Shown here one piece after another: positions 34,121 through 45,436 of a DNA stretch of 64,000 bases. The position numbers were made by a program, and so were the translations under genes. The notes under the pieces are model-generated. The model did no database searches, was not told where the DNA came from, and saw nothing but the letters and a program-made list of their open reading frames with translations. Within the stretch, counting starts at the first letter, position 1. Each line of letters opens with the position of its first letter. This DNA is from Trileptium ribeirensis (lineage: Eukaryota > Nematoda > Enoplea > Enoplida > Thoracostomopsidae), in the NCBI GenBank assembly GCA_030248225.1, contig JASANE010019328.1:1-64000 (forward strand), written 5' to 3'.

Positions 34121-35377
34121 ATGGCATTGTTATGTAACCAGTTATTACTTGCTGCTGGAGAAAACGTTCCCTTAGTAAACACGGAACTAACATCGATGTA
34201 TAATGGGCCCGCAACTATGAAGAAAATTTTACTTCCTGGTCCATCTAGCGCAGCAGCGGCGAAGGAATTAATATTTTATGTGGTCTACGGTTTTCAACCT
34301 TCTGGCATCTATACGAAAGAAAACTCTTCCTTAGCAAATACGGAACTAAAATCGATCTATAATAGTGGGCCCGCAACTATGAAGAAAATTTTACTTCCTG
34401 GTCCATCTAGCGCAGCAGCGGCGAAGGAATTAATATTTTATGTGGTCTACGGTTTTCAACCTTCTGGCATCTATACGAAAGAAAACTCTCCCCTAGCAAA
34501 TACGGAACTAAAATCGATCTATAATAGTGGGCCCGCAACTATGAAGAAAATTTTACTTCCTGGTCCATCTAGCGCAGCAGCGGCGAAGGAATTAATATTT
34601 TATGTGGTCTACGGTTTTCAACCTTCTGGCATCTATACGAAAGAAAACTCTTCCCTAGCAAATACGGAACTAAAATCGATCTATAATAGTGGGCCCGCAA
34701 CTATGAAGAAAATTTTACTTCCTGGTCCATCTAGCGCAGCAGCGGCGAAGGAATTAATATTTTATGTGGTCTACGGTTTTCAACCTTCTGGCATCTATAC
34801 GAAAGAAAACTCTTCCCTAGCAAATACGGAACTAAAATCGATCTATAATAGTGGGCCCGCAACTATGAAGAAAATTTTACTTCCTGGTCCATCTAGCGCA
34901 GCAGCGGCGAAGGAATTAATATTTTATGTGGTCTACGGTTTTCAACCTTCTGGCATCTATACGAAAGAAAACTCTCCCCTAGCAAATACGGAACTAAAAT
35001 CGATCTATAATAGTGGGCCCGCAACTATGAAGAAAATTTTACTTCCTGGTCCATCTAGCGCAGCAGCGGCGAAGGAATTAATATTTTATGTGGTCTACGG
35101 TTTTCAACCTTCTGGCATCTATACGAAAGAAAACTCTTCCCTAGCAAATACGGAACTAAAATCGATCTATAATAGTGGGCCCGCAACTATGAAGAAAATT
35201 TTACTTCCTGGACCATGTAACGCAGCAGCGGCAGAGGAATTAATATTTTATGTGGTCTACGGTTTTCAACCTTCTTGCATCTATAAGAAATTTTATTTAT
35301 ATTATATGCCTACAAATTTAACGTTATGTACACTAGAATCGGAGATATGTGGTCAGCGGAATTGCCCAAACTTTTGA
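34121..35377 (+). CDS. 418-codon open frame over seven 54-residue repeats
   Basis: It starts with ATG and stays open across seven tandem units of 162 bp (starts 34,172, 34,331, 34,493, 34,655, 34,817, 34,979, 35,141). The repeat includes KSIYNSGPATMKKILLPGP and ELIFYVVYGFQPSGIY with an Ala-rich stretch between. I recognise no family. The internal units are almost identical at the DNA level. The Ser/Pro variant before LANTEL follows the pattern SS-SP-SS, SS-SP-SS, so units 2-4 were duplicated as a 486-bp block to make 5-7. The first unit lacks one codon and the last is diverged, as expected at the ends of an array homogenised by unequal exchange. Since 162 is a multiple of three, the frame may be open only because one unit lacks a stop. 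Expression is unproven. Confidence 0.3.
   Translation: MALLCNQLLLAAGENVPLVNTELTSMYNGPATMKKILLPGPSSAAAAKELIFYVVYGFQPSGIYTKENSSLANTELKSIYNSGPATMKKILLPGPSSAAAAKELIFYVVYGFQPSGIYTKENSPLANTELKSIYNSGPATMKKILLPGPSSAAAAKELIFYVVYGFQPSGIYTKENSSLANTELKSIYNSGPATMKKILLPGPSSAAAAKELIFYVVYGFQPSGIYTKENSSLANTELKSIYNSGPATMKKILLPGPSSAAAAKELIFYVVYGFQPSGIYTKENSPLANTELKSIYNSGPATMKKILLPGPSSAAAAKELIFYVVYGFQPSGIYTKENSSLANTELKSIYNSGPATMKKILLPGPCNAAAAEELIFYVVYGFQPSCIYKKFYLYYMPTNLTLCTLESEICGQRNCPNF
34172..35302 (+). repeat. 7 x 162-bp tandem array with a 486-bp higher-order unit
   Basis: Near-identical units with a 162-bp period (the first is 159 bp). The extra identity between units 2-4 and 5-7 shows a recent three-unit duplication. 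Such an array is prone to copy-number change between individuals. Confidence 0.92.
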
Positions 35378-38131: not shown

Positions 38132-40290
38132 CCAACAAACACTAGAAGTCGCTCACATGAGAAAACGGCGGTTTAGTAATCCATATCTAGAACTAACAGC
38201 AGGGTAATACCGGTGTTTGACCTGGAAGCGACTGATCTCATCTAACATGGCTCAGATTTTCGTACCATATATGTTACTTGATTGAAATTTACATAGACCA
38301 TCTAAGTTCAGCCGTAATGATGACAATTGTTGCTCAGACGATACTCAACACAACTGTTGCTGCTATATGGCTAAAATTTTTACATTACATATAACTTTAT
38401 ACTGTCTACCGTTAATATTGATATATTATGAACTACAGCTTCCGTGAGAAAACAAAAAAATTATATGCCAATTTTGGGTAGAAATTTATGAAATCAGTTC
38501 GTCAGCATCTACTATATGCTCTCATAATCCGGGAGTCCTGTTCACATCACAAGACAGTTAAACACAACTGCTGTGGATATCACCCGCTTAAATAATCAGA
38601 ACAAAATAAATGTGAAAAAATTTTGCAGAAACTGCCTACACCAAGCGGATTTGGTTACAACTGGCCAATAATTCATTGCCTAATACACCATGTTTCTTTT
38701 GGTGATAGCCAATAACAGCCGAAACAAGCTTGATTGTCGAACAGTGATATCTTTTGAAAATTTTGGCATACTCCTGTGTTTTTCTAAAGAGAAAAATGTC
38801 ACAGCAGTTTAGTGACCAACAACAGTATCTATAAGATTTTAACGGAATTAATAATTAAAAATGGGGTTTCGAGACGGATTCTTGACTCGAAATCAGAAGA
38901 GCTTAACAATTACACTATCAGTGTTTGGTGTAAAACTTATGTATTAAGCTTGATATGCAAAATACAATGAAATAACATAAATTACAAATTAAACATTTCT
39001 CCTGGTTCCTATAAAGACTACGTATGTGTTTTTCCCGACCTTTTAACCTTTGATTTCAACAAAATCTGCGTCGTAGACGTCCATACGCAACTGAATTGAG
39101 TCTTACATTTACGTAATAAGTCGGATATTTCCTTTTTGAAGTACGTCAACATAGCTTAGAACTAAAATTCGACCATGGCAATAAAACAAGGTATGGATCA
39201 TTCCGGCCAGATAGACAAATTAGCGTTGACTGCAAACAAATATATACATCTCATTAATAACAAGGTATGATTAAATATATAGTAGGAAAACGTGAAAGAC
39301 AATATCATAATTTGTGTTTGAATACATGAAACAAAAAATGAAACATTTAATATTATTGTTGTAGACGAGACTAGGAATCCATACGTTAATATTGTCAAAA
39401 CACCATACTACCAGTCGGCCATTGCAACGATGTAACCCGTTTTTATAAAGTGTATGATATTTCTGGCGTAAAAAAAGAATAAATAAAGAACGATACATAC
39501 AGTTAGCATAAAACCAGAAAATCCTTTTGATGAGAACATAGACCGTGTTTTGAATGGAAATTTTTGTGTTCCAGCAGTGACTCGAATGTATTTTCAGCTA
39601 CAGTTGATGCAAAACATCGTGGCTAAAATCAAAACACAGGTTAGCCTGAATGCTATATATGTTTCCAAATTTAGCCTAAACATTTATAAAATATTAAAAC
39701 ATTTAAGGGTATTATAAAGGTTTAAATCATTAAATTATTATTTTCAGATGAGTTCGTGTAACACGCATTTTCTGTATCGTTTTGGGTTAGGAATATTTAA
39801 CTTTTTAACCGAATAGCGGACACATCAAACATAGCGATCTGTTTTGTGCGTTCAATGTCGTTTCATTAGCACTGCAGCAGCTAGAAATGGCGCATTGTGT
39901 TTTATGTATTATGTATATATGTGCATATTATATAATATGACAGCGTAAAATTCCAATCTTTACATCCTTTGTTTCGAACATAATTTCGTAGATTTAACTA
40001 GTGCAGCGGTATGAGGTATAAGTGTCACACCGCAGATAGCTCCCCACGGTTGACGGGCGATTTGATAACAACGACCGGGGCGTAAAATTATACCCATTTA
40101 TTATTTATATACAAATTCATAAGAAAATGGTCACCTTTGACTTTGAGTCATGATATTGCACTCCTGAACACATCTATAGATAGACACGTACCATACACAA
40201 TAAGATTAAATGCGAAAACAATTTTACAGCCTGCCGGCCGTGACAATAACAGCTATGCACTAAAAAGTCGCGGATCTCAGTCGCTCATAT
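38132..40290. other. No gene seen
   Basis: Short frames without domains. The sequence left of 40,291 does not match the 5' LTR of the neighbouring retrotransposon, so its 3' LTR appears truncated or replaced here. Confidence 0.35.
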
Positions 40291-40339
40291 TGTCTTTGCT
40301 ACCATATATAATTTGCGTACGCAAATTATTAGCATTACA
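40291..40339 (-). repeat. 3' LTR start (49 bp matching the 5' LTR)
   Basis: On - it reads TGTAATGCTAATAATTTGCG and continues to AAAGACA. Beyond this point the sequence no longer resembles the other end, so the rest of the 3' LTR is missing, rearranged or strongly diverged. The pol stop at 40,354 lies only 14 bases away. No good polypurine tract is seen between them. Confidence 0.65.
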
Positions 40340-40431
40340 GAACCACCATTGTTTTAAGCGGAGCGCCGACCGAGCACAACAGCCTGAGGTGCAAAACGAA
40401 ATTTTTTACTGTTGGTGCAAGTGACGGCTGA

Positions 40432-40689
40432 CGCCAGATAAGGCTTTAAATGACGAGACGCTATGTCGAAGGCGCGCCGCAGGTCCGATCGTTTGACCGT
40501 TGGATCAGGCTCAAAATGACGAATCGATTGGAACGGGACGAAAGCAAGGCGTTCCGTACCAAAAAATATTACCGCGAGTGAGTTATGTGGTTGTTTAAGA
40601 GACGATAGTTCCGTTTTGGCTGACGAGGTAACGAGTGCAGGCCACCATTGCCAATTCCGCATTTTTGCCAGAATCACCGTGACTTCTTT
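40432..40689 (-). pseudogene. PWWP domain at the C-terminus of Pol
   Basis: PWWP domains are chromatin readers, many binding methylated H3K36 nucleosomes and DNA. Seen here are VILAKMRNWQWWPALV (the family pattern is V-W-A-K-x-x-G-aromatic-P-x-W-P-A), then LAVIFFGTERLAFVPFQSI matching the V-x-FFGT...A-F/W strand pair, then a helical tail SDLRRAFDIASRHL. A Ser/Asp-rich linker of about 35 residues joins it to the integrase end in the same frame. The conserved G before the aromatic is N, and the first P of PWWP is Q. It sits where chromoviruses carry a chromodomain, so I infer a role in choosing integration sites. This domain region has no stop or shift in this copy. Confidence 0.8.
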
Positions 40690-40790
40690 GTTCTGTTCAT
40701 CGTTACCGATATTAATGTCGCTCTGATCACGGAGAGTGTCGCTCGAAGAAGTTGAAGATGCGGATGATGTGTTTATGCCATCTTGATCAT

Positions 40791-41432
40791 TTAGAAAGGC
40801 GGGTTTAATGCGGTCGATGCTACTCGATCATCACCGCTTTGAAATTTGACGATCTTTTTGAAATTTTGACCTTTTGAAATTTGACTAAATTTATCATCAC
40901 AATCTAGTACCTCGTACGGACCATGATAACGCGGTTGTAGAGTGTTTTTAATGGAGTCGTCACGTATCCATACGTGTTTGGCGATTTTAATATTCGTCGG
41001 CACGTAACAATGTTTGTTGTGGTGACACTCAGGAGCATTAAGACGGCGGATGCCGGAAAATAGTCGTATTTTGAAATCGTGTTCTGACGCTAACTCTTTA
41101 GTCGACGTTGGCGTAAAATAATGGTGTGGCAAATCAATACCGGACCCAAACACCATTTCACATGGAGCAAAACCTTTATCGTTGACGCTAGTGCGAATTC
41201 CAAGCAAAACGAGAGGAAGTGATGTCCATGTAGCGGAAGCACAATGAGCACGCAATCCGTTTTGGAGCGTACGATGAAAACCCTCAACAGTACCGTTGCA
41301 TGCTGGATGATAGGCTGTCGTTCGACTGCGTTCAATTCCTAGTTGTTCCATGAGGGATGACCATAACGCAGATTCGAACTGCGTGCCGCGATCGGAAATC
41401 AGGACACGCGGAACGCCGAATCTCTTATCCAA
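40791..41432 (-). pseudogene. Integrase core and GPY/F module of Pol
   Basis: It carries the second and third catalytic acids (SDRGTQFES, NGTVEGFHRTLQN) and the C-terminal GPY/F module (RYHGPYEVLD). The apparent stop at 40,791 results from a one-base loss near 40,820. In the neighbouring frame the sequence reads on as IDRIKPAFLNDQD, the usual end of a gypsy integrase, and continues to the PWWP domain. Confidence 0.85.
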
Positions 41433-42352
41433 CCGGAGATGAGCGCCTCTGCCACTGACTCAGTAGTAATGTCGGAGATGGGAATTGCTTCGGGCCACCT
41501 AGTAAATCGATCGATAATGGTTACCAAATAACGCGTGTCTTTCGAAGAGGGCAACGGACCAACAATGTCAATGTGCACCGTGTGAAAACGTCCAGTTGTT
41601 GGGAGTGTTCCGACTGTAGCTTTTGTGTGTCGTACCACTTTGCTCCGTTGGCATTCGATACACTCTCGGCACCATGTCTTGACGTCACGATTCATGTTTG
41701 GCCAAATATAATTGTGGGAGATGCTGCTGAGAGTTGCGCGCGAATCAAGATGGGCGAGGTTGTGCACCGATTTGAAAATGTTAAATCGCATTTCCGTGGG
41801 AACGTACAGGCGAAGTTTCGGAACCATCTTACCGTCGATAACATACCGCTTGATGGGCAGATCGGTTGATTGAATAAACCGTATGAGGATAGAATCAGCG
41901 GCTTGAGCATCAGCCAGTTGACTGTCGAACGCAATTGAAATAGTGCACACAGGACGAGAGAGAGCGTCTGCGACCACGTTATCGGCACCGGCGACATGCT
42001 CAATTCTACAACCAAACTCGGAGATGTACGAGAGCCACCGGCTCTGTTGCGGTGATGGATTTGCCATTGTTAGCGCGTGGAGGAGTGGCTTATGATCCGT
42101 ACGAACGATAAATTCCGAACCGAGGAGCCATGAAAAATGTTTGAGAGTTTTGTATATCGCTAGCATTTCTCTATCAAATGCAGACTTTCTTGACTCCAGT
42201 TCAGTGAGCTTTTCAGAATAAAATGCGATTGGTTGGCAAACATTGTCTATAATTTGGTTAAGCGCAGCTTCAAGCTCCAACTGCATCGTCGGAGGCATCA
42301 GTGACGAGGCAAAGTTTGGCATTTGGATCTGGAAACGCCAGCGTAACCGCAT
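41399..42352 (-). pseudogene. RNase H and N-terminal integrase segment of Pol
   Basis: The RNase H catalytic region continues after the 7-bp duplication with [20 protein letters not shown], and [13 protein letters not shown] and [10 protein letters not shown] follow. The integrase zinc-binding region reads [20 protein letters not shown] then [12 protein letters not shown]. The core starts with [20 protein letters not shown]. The frame ends at a shift near 41,430 just before the second catalytic Asp. Confidence 0.85.
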
Positions 42353-43781
42353 CTTCCAGACCGGTCTTTCAGTTGTTGAACGCGGTATCCGTACACGTCG
42401 ACCAGTCTAAGTTGAAGTTTCCTTTGCCTTTCTTGCCACGGATCATGTCCGTTAAAGGCGCAGCGATACGAGAGAAATGCGGGACAAAACGGTGATAGAA
42501 TCCGGTCATGCCGAGGAAACGACGCAGACCTTTGATAGTGTGCGGCCGCGAAAACTCTTTGATTGCTTGAACCTTTGCAGGAATAGGGCGAACACCATCT
42601 CCGTCCACCTGTACGCCGACAAAGTTCACCTTTGTCCTGAATAGTACACATTTATCCGGACAAAGGCGAACACCATGCTTGTCGAGGCATTGCATTACCA
42701 TGTGAAGATGATTGAAATGTTCGTCGACGTTGGCACTTGTTACCAGGATATCATCAAGGTACACCTTTACGAACGGATATTCCGCAAAAAACAGAGTCCA
42801 TAAGACGTTGGAATGTTTGCGCGGCATTACGAAATCCGAAGAGCATTCGACGAAATAGAAATAGTCCGAACGGAGTTGTTATTGCGGTCTTTGGCTGATC
42901 TGCTTCAGCAATTGGGATTTGAGTATAAGCACACACTAGATCTAACTTCGAAAATATGGATGCCCCCTTAAGATCGCTTGTTAACTCGGCAAGATTTGGC
43001 ATATGGTATTATTCGGCTATTGTTTGACTGTTCAGTTTACGATAGTCACCAGTTGAACGCCACGGACTAGAAGGATCCCACTTGGGGACCATGTGCAGCG
43101 GAGATGCATAAGGAGATTCGCCGCGATAAACGATTCCCTTTTTCATCCATTCGGAGAACACTCGCTTTGCTATCGCAAGCTTTGGTCCAACTAATCGGCG
43201 TGGTCGTTCGTAACATGGCGGGCCGGTTGTAACGATGTGATGTTGAATGCTGTGACGAACGAGGGTGAACGTATCGACCGGTTTGAAGATGCACGGAAAT
43301 TTGGCACACAGTTGCTTTACTCGCATGGAGTAATCCTGCATATCAACATGATAGCTTGGCATTGCACGCGGCCGCTTCTTTGTCGTTGAATTACAAACAG
43401 CGGAAGGGACTTGTGCTTTGACCGGCATTAGTCGATTATTTAAACAGTCCACCGCGAAACGATGATAACACAGAAAATCGCGGCCAAGGATTGGGTGGTT
43501 AACATTTGCGACGTAGAAAGTCCATTTGAACGGCTTACGAAACCCATTTAAAGTAAATGTCAGTTCAGATGTGCCTATAATATTTAGCTGGCTGCCGTTG
43601 GCTTCAAACGCAGAGACTGATCCATGGCGTAGGGGTAAGAAATGAGGTGCGTGCACTTGTTGGATAAACAACCATGAACTGCCACTGTCGGCTATAAAAG
43701 ACCGAACAGGGTACGCACCGGTAAATACTGAATTTGCTACCCCACCGCGCCGTACCGAAACGGTGGGGACTAATCGTTTCC
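42265..43781 (-). pseudogene. Protease, reverse transcriptase and start of RNase H segment of Pol
   Basis: The protease follows the frameshift directly and is of retroviral aspartic type, with DSG in place of the more common DTG. RT spans about 43,150-42,450. A stop (TAA, 43,009-43,011) replaces the codon after GDYRKLNSQTIAE. A frameshift inside a T run near 42,790 separates FGFRNAAQTFQRLMDSVF from EYPFVKVYLDDILV. The TGA at 42,369 falls in the RT-RNase H connection. Confidence 0.82.
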
Positions 43782-43782
43782 C
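43740..43782 (-). promoter_or_regulatory. Programmed -1 ribosomal frameshift signal (gag to pol)
   Basis: The heptamer G GGA AAC (43,776-43,782, read on -) is in the correct gag phase, two codons before the gag TAG. After a 7-nt spacer a perfect 8-bp stem follows: CCCCACCG (43,761-43,768) pairs with CGGTGGGG (43,740-43,747) across 13 nt. The pol frame is exactly -1 to gag and overlaps it by about 36 nt. This is the standard layout of retroviral frameshift sites. Confidence 0.85.
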
Positions 43783-45119
43783 TGGCCACTGCTTGAGCGT
43801 GACCGTTTATGAAACGTGCAGAGTTGAGGGTCGTGACACTTACGCGCTTTGCTGCCAAATTGGTTGTGATAGCAGCAATACCCGGATTGTCGTCGAGTCA
43901 ATAGCGAGTTAGAACGAATACGATTATTGCGATTGCCACCGTTGGTACTTCGCGATCTGCTACGTCCATTATGGAAATTTGACGTACTACTGCCTGAAAG
44001 TCTGCGTACAGCGTTAGTAAGCTCAGCGATCTCACGTTCTTGCCAGGACGCATTCGGTGTGACCCGTGCGACCTCTTGTGTATCAATTTGATTGACCATA
44101 GAAGGATCTGCCATGTCCATCATCGTGTCTGCTATCCGAGCCAATTGTTCAAGAGGGACATTATCCATAGATACCAAGGTGAGACGGATACGCTCAGGTA
44201 AGATTTCGAGAAATCGGGGGCGTACCAGGTATTGACTGTTTGGTGCCATATCTAATAGTTCACGTAGGGCACTCGAGGGTTTACGGCCTTTGAGATCTTT
44301 CTCGGCTAGAAGCTTTCGAAGTCGTCGATTGTCGCTGTCGGCATAGAAATTTATCAGCGTGTACTTGATGTCAGCAAACGATGCCTTGAGATCGACCCCA
44401 GACTCGTAGACTACCTCGTTATCGATTGCTCGAAGGACATTGCGCTTTTTAAGATCCTCGTCCATCTGTCCGAGGATCTGGTCAATCTGATTGAAGCACG
44501 ATTGATGGCATCACGTATTGAATTGGGGAAGTCGATGAAATTGCGCCGAACTAGATGTCGTCTCGACCGCTGTGACTGACCCCGCGGAAGCTTGAAACTT
44601 GGCGATTGATAATTGATTGTAAGCTAAGTTGAGGACATCGGGCCCGAACGGGGTTAAAACCGCAATGATACTCTCTTTCGTCGATGGCATTTCGAACGCA
44701 CTGTCAGTTGCCTTGAGTAGCTCAAGCATACCGGTGAGTGTCTGTTTCGGCATCTGCGATAGGTTGACCGGCCCCGGGTTTGATTCGGTACCGCCGATAA
44801 GCAACAACACTCGAAGGCCAGTGGCATGACGATTATTTAGACATTCACCTGCAAAGATCGATAAATAGGAGCGGAATGAGACCGAACCGTCGGATGTAAA
44901 ACGTTTGCGTTTGACACAACCGGGCAATGTGACCGGAAGGACAGCCTGGAACAGCACGGGACCCGTTACACGTGGGGTATCGACATGAAAACACCGAACA
45001 TTGAACACCATTAAGGACACGACAAAAAGTATAGGAAAAACTCGGAGCCCAGAAGTGTTGCGTAGCCTTGTCGGGTTCAATATTGTAATTAGTTTATATC
45101 GTTCCGCGATTATAATCAC
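43770..45119 (-). pseudogene. gag: Gag of the LTR element (leader, 2A-like motif, capsid-like region, CHCC finger)
   Basis: Gag forms the particle and binds the element RNA. The frame on - runs from 45,119 to the TAG at 43,770 with one in-frame TGA at 44,511-44,513. The first ~100 residues include a hydrophobic stretch (VFPILFVVSLMVF) and lead to LLLIGGTESNPGP, a 2A-like end. The middle part, after the stop, contains ILPERIRLTLVSM and other capsid-like sequence. The C-terminus has an Arg/Ser-rich patch and the finger CCYHNQFGSKARKC, with another Cys six residues on. The CHCC arrangement differs from the usual CCHC knuckle and points to the CsRn1 group. A -1 frameshift site overlaps the end. 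The start at 45,119 is not firm. Confidence 0.8.
44769..44810 (-). other. 2A-like motif in the Gag leader
   Basis: The translation LLLIGGTESNPGP resembles 2A ribosome-skipping peptides, whose core is D-(V/I)-E-x-N-P-G-P after a Leu-rich stretch. The E-x-N-P-G-P part is exact. The Asp and Val/Ile before it are Gly and Thr, which may reduce or abolish activity in this copy. Its place between a hydrophobic leader and Gag would allow release of the leader as a separate peptide. Confidence 0.6.
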
Positions 45120-45372
45120 TTATCATCAATTGATTACTCTTCTTTTTCTAACAGATGTTCTTTCGGCTAGGCGTCTTCGATAGCGTTGATGTCTGATCTT
45201 ATCATGAATTATCAATGTTCTTTCTTTCAATCAAACTTCAGTCAGGCTTCTTATCAATCTACACGTTGTTTTGGTCGTTGAGTCTTTGGGCGTCGATTTA
45301 GGAATCATCTATCGTCACGACGTACGGCAGTCGATCTAATGAACAATGACTGAAGAGTTGAGATCACAAACG

Positions 45373-45381
45373 CCTTATATA
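45373..45381 (-). promoter_or_regulatory. TATA box in the 5' LTR
   Basis: TATATAAGG on - lies just inside the element, with an initiator-like TTCAGTC about 25 bases downstream. This fits the U3/R core promoter of an LTR element. Confidence 0.5.
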
Positions 45382-45387
45382 GTCTAA

Positions 45388-45436
45388 TGTCTTTGCTACC
45401 ATATATAATTTGCATAGGCAAACTGTTAGCATTACA
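45388..45436 (-). repeat. 5' LTR start
   Basis: It matches 40,291-40,339 at 45 of 49 positions and begins TGTAATGC on -. A TATA box follows closely. The 3' boundary of the 5' LTR and the primer-binding site could not be located. Confidence 0.65.

Follow-up and report, generated by a model that had tools for sequence, protein, structure and literature searches.

The locus described here raises the question of whether a chromatin reader other than the chromodomain, which chromoviruses carry at the C-terminal end of their integrase, can form part of the integrase of a Ty3/gypsy retrotransposon. It lies in a stretch of 64,000 nucleotides from the nematode Trileptium ribeirensis (contig JASANE010019328.1 of assembly GCA_030248225.1, positions 1 to 64,000; hereafter the window) and consists of a Ty3/gypsy element in minus-strand orientation that is no longer intact and whose last Pol frame encodes a PWWP domain. 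An earlier interpretation made from the letters alone (the sequence-only reading) had placed a PWWP reader at the integrase end of this Pol, and it is supported by the analysis reported below. In the explanation that we favour and consider rather probable, the PWWP has become a permanent component of the integrase, maintained by selection, in one CsRn1-like Ty3/gypsy clade, where it would tether integration to H3K36-methylated chromatin.

A PWWP domain in the last Pol frame

The last Pol frame of the window copy (157 amino acids) begins with a Ser/Asp-rich linker, continues with VILAKMRNWQWWPALV and LAVIFFGTERLAFVPFQSI, and ends in a further tail, just as the sequence-only reading had described; the frame change that it had placed near 40,820 was likewise found close to 40.82 kb. 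The parts of this frame are:

40354..40827, minus strand: entire open reading frame (ORF) with linker, PWWP and C-terminal tail (ORF and alignment)
40684..40827, minus strand: Ser/Asp-rich linker from the integrase C-terminal module to the PWWP (sequence; fast-evolving in most sister pairs)
40492..40677, minus strand: PWWP domain, Pfam core, residues 51–112 of the last frame (PF00855, 42.4 bits, E 9.9e-11; AlphaFold2 core)
40423..40488, minus strand: helix behind the PWWP barrel (model helix 114–135, low confidence in the last residues; K/R/H-rich start recurring in the alignment)

The Pfam match is well above the cut-off of 25.6 bits and bears out the domain assignment, and PF00855 was matched at E ≤ 0.01 by all 25 PWWP domains that were scanned singly. 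A structure was predicted with AlphaFold2 using four aligned sequences as input, giving a confident core (residues 51–130, ten-residue pLDDT means 80–90) with predicted strands at 51–54, 62–66, 83–88, 94–98, and 102–104, i.e., a beta barrel followed by the helix; confidence was low in the linker and over the C-terminal 27 residues (means 41–55), and the value for the whole model was 67.9. Compared with solved structures, the window domain had 17 distinct matching sequences at E ≤ 0.01, all of the LEDGF/p75 or HDGF family. When a family profile (25 domains) was compared with solved sequences, NSD2, DNMT3B, and NSD3 scored best, followed by LEDGF and HDGF (best 60 of 72 matches).

Sister copies in the same genome

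The integrase of the window copy is located upstream of the PWWP frame in two other frames (40791–41459 and 41399–42406, minus strand), with Pfam matches to H2C2 and two partial matches to rve. A broken copy with the PWWP in a frame of its own is what one would expect if a host gene fragment had been captured by this copy only, or if the arrangement were an assembly artefact. The genome was searched for the window domain (150 places scored of 445 candidates) and for PWWP domains in general (150 scored of 777); copy numbers from these searches are rough, as identical proteins occur on some contigs and are possibly alleles. Sisters without the segment had been named as the outcome that would speak for a one-copy capture, but 24 other places among those scored matched the window domain at 83–92% identity over at least 133 of its 157 residues, five of them in frames of 1,164–1,185 amino acids. 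Frames of at least 1,000 amino acids held 27 of the 150 scored PWWP places, and in one of these the match contains a stop. Intact sister copies, which the sequence-only reading had proposed to look for, encode reverse transcriptase (RT), RNase H, H2C2, integrase core, and PWWP in a single open frame (1,022–1,214 amino acids), and the order RT-RNase H-H2C2-rve-PWWP was recovered by Pfam in 6/6 sister Pol frames scanned, with the protease scored in only two of them.

A search with P0026, a relative without PWWP, led to the same result. Among the 44 Pol sequences scored, 33 were 44–47% identical to the query and 32 of these had an adjacent PWWP match (damaged in C7990 and C11487; C1411 stands outside this count), while the other 11 formed a nearer group (52–53% identity), in which no PWWP was present in the four members fetched (L035–L038). 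In addition, three public Pol proteins from other sequence sources (P0001, P0024, and P0025; 41–49% identity to the queries) carry a PWWP, the domain being noted in 1/23 and 3/28 matches of two public protein searches. The PWWP is thus a feature of a lineage, located at the integrase end, as had been proposed; a one-copy capture or an artefact is rejected in view of the sister copies, and we assign it next to no probability.

Long PWWP frames were also encountered outside this context. An 850-amino-acid frame (L029:2722–5271, minus strand) combines a 2A-like motif, PWWP, and DUF7869, and perhaps belongs to another mobile element that acquired a PWWP, while L031:7135–9261 and L032:7014–8945 are long open frames with a PWWP but no integrase, the former type recurring at equal score on C448, C2882, and C5865.

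Origin of the domain and selection on it

For the Pol tree, 66 sequences were trimmed before the PWWP and analysed under LG+G4 and a mixture model; P0029 and P0031 (not whole Pols) as well as P0051 and P0052 (NADAR proteins) were excluded. The 19 sequences with PWWP formed one group against the 47 without it (SH-aLRT 100 under both models), i.e., the domain arose once among the Pols sampled for this tree. The three public PWWP proteins branch at different places within this group, so that the capture would predate much of its divergence. Named Pol relatives in the public collection include Bicyclus, Trichuris, Pieris, and Cordylochernes. Distances between PWWP domains track those between Pols (Mantel r 0.746, 19 sequences, 0 of 9,999 permutations as high).

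The ratio of nonsynonymous to synonymous substitution rates (dN/dS) was calculated for 13 sister pairs and used only where dS was finite. It ranged from 0.06 to 0.11 in the integrase core (7 pairs), from 0.08 to 0.20 in the PWWP of six pairs and from 0.34 to 0.37 in three others (L004/L017, L007/L017, and L046/L047), whereas the linker had values of 0.34–0.91 in nine pairs and of 0–0.20 in the same three. The PWWP is under purifying selection, and in most pairs the preceding linker drifts.

The sister Pols L035, L037, and L038, which have no PWWP, end in a short terminal tail with the residues VRF. The alignment of 38 sequences (without the duplicates or near-duplicates L002, L006, and L008–L011 and without L003, L029, L031, and L032, which have a PWWP but no integrase) contains a V-x-F-type motif behind the PWWP that is kept in many PWWP sequences. 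Taken together, these two tails suggest that the PWWP arrived by insertion into the linker rather than by addition at the very end.

The putative methyl-lysine cage and its proposed target

The available part of one study of the PSIP1 PWWP gives M15, Y18, W21, and F44 as the cage and reports that an M15A mutant is not enriched on H3K36me3-rich genes (PMC3663649). At these positions the window domain has M, W, W, and F. Across 36 domains (L040 and L042 were excluded because their frames are damaged within it) all four positions were compatible with a cage in 34: the first (position 15) is F in 29, M in three, Y in two, V in one, and S in one, the second (position 18) is Y in 18, F in 10, and W in eight, and the last two are W and F throughout (36/36 each). 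Judged from these residues, the domain is likely a methyl-lysine reader, and H3K36 would be its most likely mark.

The domain could instead serve integrase assembly, stability, or nuclear import rather than target choice. Its position after the integrase C-terminal module and its terminal helix with a basic start would suit such a role, and the finding that W21 and F44 of PSIP1 also matter for folding (available text of PMC3663649) tempers any argument from the cage. A structural part would, however, not need a methyl-lysine cage, yet the cage is kept, and the relatives L035 and L036 have long Pol frames in the same genome without any PWWP; we consider this role quite improbable.

A stronger competitor, though still an unlikely one, is tethering to another feature, such as a different methylated lysine or mainly nucleosomal DNA, which would lead to general retention on chromatin or to a bias other than one for gene bodies. 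This would agree with the loss of the first cage position in L022 and L049, with the several PWWP subfamilies that fit the family profile, and with the very weak binding of an H3K36me3 peptide by the PSIP1 PWWP alone (KD 17 mM, in the part of PMC3663649 available), but the full four-position cage in 34/36 domains argues against it, as does the fact that the solved domains nearest to the window domain include LEDGF, an H3K36-methyl reader.

In the favoured explanation, tethering to methylated H3K36, the PWWP, separated from the integrase C-terminal module by a variable linker, would act after the integrase-cDNA complex has entered the nucleus. It would then bind both the DNA of nucleosomes and a methylated lysine that they carry, the likeliest being H3K36me2/3 in the bodies of transcribed genes, and thereby tether integration at these sites, i.e., it would take the role that LEDGF/p75 has for lentiviral integrase, with the reader in cis. 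The data show the domain itself, the single frame that it shares with the integrase of sister copies, its single origin, its conservation, and its cage residues, whereas the mark, the tethering, and the choice of target are inferred.

Several points weigh against this explanation. Some PWWP domains recognise other marks or work mainly via DNA. The likeness to LEDGF is in part specific to the window family, as the family profile puts NSD2, DNMT3B, and NSD3 ahead of LEDGF. The two domains of L022 and L049 (2/36) have neither an aromatic residue nor Met at the first cage position, and near-identical copies are present among the 36 cage sequences, hence these are not 36 independent cases. Both trees came from 'quick' searches without bootstrap, and the outgroup sequence P0023 is very long. 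The PWWP had its highest dN/dS, and the linker a lower one, in three pairs (L004/L017, L007/L017, and L046/L047, the last of these nearly unchanged), and dS was high or saturated in many pairs.

Element class and additional genes

The class of the elements was assessed in 17 long terminal repeat (LTR) loci with PWWP (L013–L028 and L030; the contig ends inside the examined stretch in L020 and L025). LTR pairs were present in 13 of them and were 91.8–100% identical, and pairs of up to 100% identity (L024) suggest recent activity. A clear 5-base target-site duplication was seen by eye only in L013 and L021 among 13 loci inspected. The Gag motif CX2HX9CX3C (CHCC) was found in 14/17 loci; as searched, it was not in L026, L027, L030, or the window copy, the window family having a longer last spacing by eye. 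The site TGGTGAACCCGA, one base off the TGGTGA(G/C)CCCG(T/A) published for CsRn1-like elements, also occurs in 14/17 loci, and it was not found in the window copy. The CsRn1 clade has a tRNA-Trp primer-binding site; a pattern search of the host genome retrieved no tRNA gene matching the putative site of the loci studied here. The sisters L035 and L036, without PWWP, have both the CHCC motif and the site, and gag and pol overlap in a -1 relation in L013, L014, L024, and L027. Membership in the CsRn1 clade is therefore probable from the Gag motif and the likeness of the putative primer-binding site. Chromovirus membership was considered as well and rejected, as there was no chromodomain among the Pfam matches of the six sister Pol frames.

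A 2A-like motif (E-x-NPGP) is located in or directly before the Gag frame in 16 of the 17 loci (not in L024); it is also present in the window (44769–44807), and it often stands behind a hydrophobic leader. The longer elements (L013, L015, L024, L028, and L030) have a third ORF after pol, whose proteins matched NADAR (PF08719) in 5/5 scanned, with additional GDSL/SGNH matches below the curated cut-off in the second half of the third ORF of L013, L015, and L028; the L015 protein has only two weak relatives in the protein collection. NADAR is abundant genome-wide, all 150 places scored (of 2,317 candidates) being above the cut-off, in frames of 135–331 amino acids. UPF0029, an IMPACT-type domain, is joined to the Gag-side frame in L025 and L026, and in the former it is flanked by two 2A-like motifs. 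UPF0029 matches numbered 101 in total; inspected by eye, 15 contigs had one located about 2–5 kb ahead of a PWWP Pol in the same orientation.

State of the window copy

The window copy is a relic, because further frame changes split its Pol and Gag. Its remaining parts, all on the minus strand, are:

40791..42406, minus strand: integrase (H2C2, split DDE core, C-terminal part) and RNase H in two frames (PF17921, PF00665 with two partial matches below the cut-off, PF17917, PF17919)
42369..43806, minus strand: protease/reverse transcriptase remnants in three frames (frames; partial DNA match, 70.5%, to the same-family copy L027)
43770..45119, minus strand: Gag remnant in two frames (frames; partial DNA matches, 74%, to the Gag part of L027)
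44769..44807, minus strand: 2A-like motif (...GGTESNPGP) in the upstream Gag frame (sequence; E-x-NPGP in sister LTR loci)
45110..45434, minus strand: 5' LTR, in the pieces 45198–45434 and 45110–45132 (blastn with L027 LTRs, 89–91% for the long piece and 100% over 22–23 bases)
40288..40340, minus strand: truncated 3' LTR (blastn with L027 LTRs, 94% over 50 bases; repeat pair D3)

No Pfam match was obtained for the Gag remnant or for the frame 43009–43806, the only one scanned of the three in the protease/reverse transcriptase region. The 3' LTR is reduced to a 53-base fragment, for which reason the copy is not datable from its LTRs, and since this fragment directly follows the PWWP frame, the copy is without a third ORF. 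Elsewhere in the window, a tandem array of a 162-base unit (copies 91–99% alike) occupies positions 34200–35309, while scans of the window for Rfam families and tRNA genes gave no match. In the genome, two overlapping matches to COX1 on a single contig are interrupted by stops and probably represent a nuclear copy.

Comparison with known systems

Chromatin readers have entered retrotransposons more than once. Integrase chromodomains reportedly direct integration to heterochromatin (Gao, 2008), and an arthropod retrotransposon is said to have captured a methyl-CpG-binding domain (de Mendoza, 2019), i.e., it also gained a chromatin reader, but a different domain. Compared by domain content, chromoviruses and chromodomain-bearing Gypsy elements have their reader at the same integrase end, where the elements studied here have a PWWP; the chromovirus analogy drawn by the sequence-only reading thus holds for the position, but not for the chromodomain, and the element is more like the CsRn1 clade.

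For the CsRn1-like elements CsRn1, PwRn1, and AgCR, the available part of the description states that no chromodomain or ENV-like protein was detected and gives the CX2HX9CX3C Gag motif and the site TGGTGA(G/C)CCCG(T/A) as their marks (PMC2582038). As far as that part goes, the PWWP elements share the CHCC motif, a near-identical site, and the -1 gag/pol overlap, and they differ by a Pol that ends in PWWP, the 2A-like motif at the Gag start, and the third ORF of some families. Gypsy elements of Ectocarpus, including a Tudor-bearing one reported in 2025, have a C-terminal Tudor or chromodomain and also NADAR (portion of PMC12477816 available); they resemble the PWWP elements in the independent gain of chromatin readers, with chromodomains at the integrase end, and in the NADAR domains, but carry a Tudor or chromodomain instead of PWWP, the term 'pwwp' having 0 occurrences in that portion. 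LEDGF/p75 (PSIP1) tethers lentiviral integrase to transcribed genes (PMC8149907, in part). The PWWP elements have a LEDGF-like PWWP with equal cage positions (PMC3663649, in part), but LEDGF/p75 is a host protein acting in trans via its integrase-binding domain (PMC8149907, in part), while here everything is one polypeptide.

Chromatin readers in Gypsy Pol are therefore already known, as chromodomains and, judging from the accessible text of PMC12477816, as Tudor in Ectocarpus, and the PWWP version is new within the literature searched. In line with the sequence-only reading, which was aware of no such family, no report of a PWWP-bearing LTR retrotransposon turned up among the papers listed from this literature, where subscription papers and preprints are thinly covered, so that absence is not proof.

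Significance

Whether these elements constitute a diverse, recently active animal Ty3/gypsy clade, in which an H3K36-methyl reader in cis on the integrase sends insertions into transcribed gene bodies, and in which some families also have a 2A-released Gag leader, a NADAR/SGNH-like third ORF, and UPF0029 cargo before Gag, is in our view evenly balanced. If true, a PWWP integrase would be aimed in the opposite direction to chromodomain integrases, at active genes, and would provide a naturally occurring equivalent, in a single polypeptide, of lentiviral integrase paired with LEDGF. As PWWP-bearing and PWWP-less relatives share one genome, the effect of the reader domain on the insertion landscape is comparable within it. 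The family may itself direct where it inserts, comparable to HIV, which relies on a borrowed protein of its host for this.
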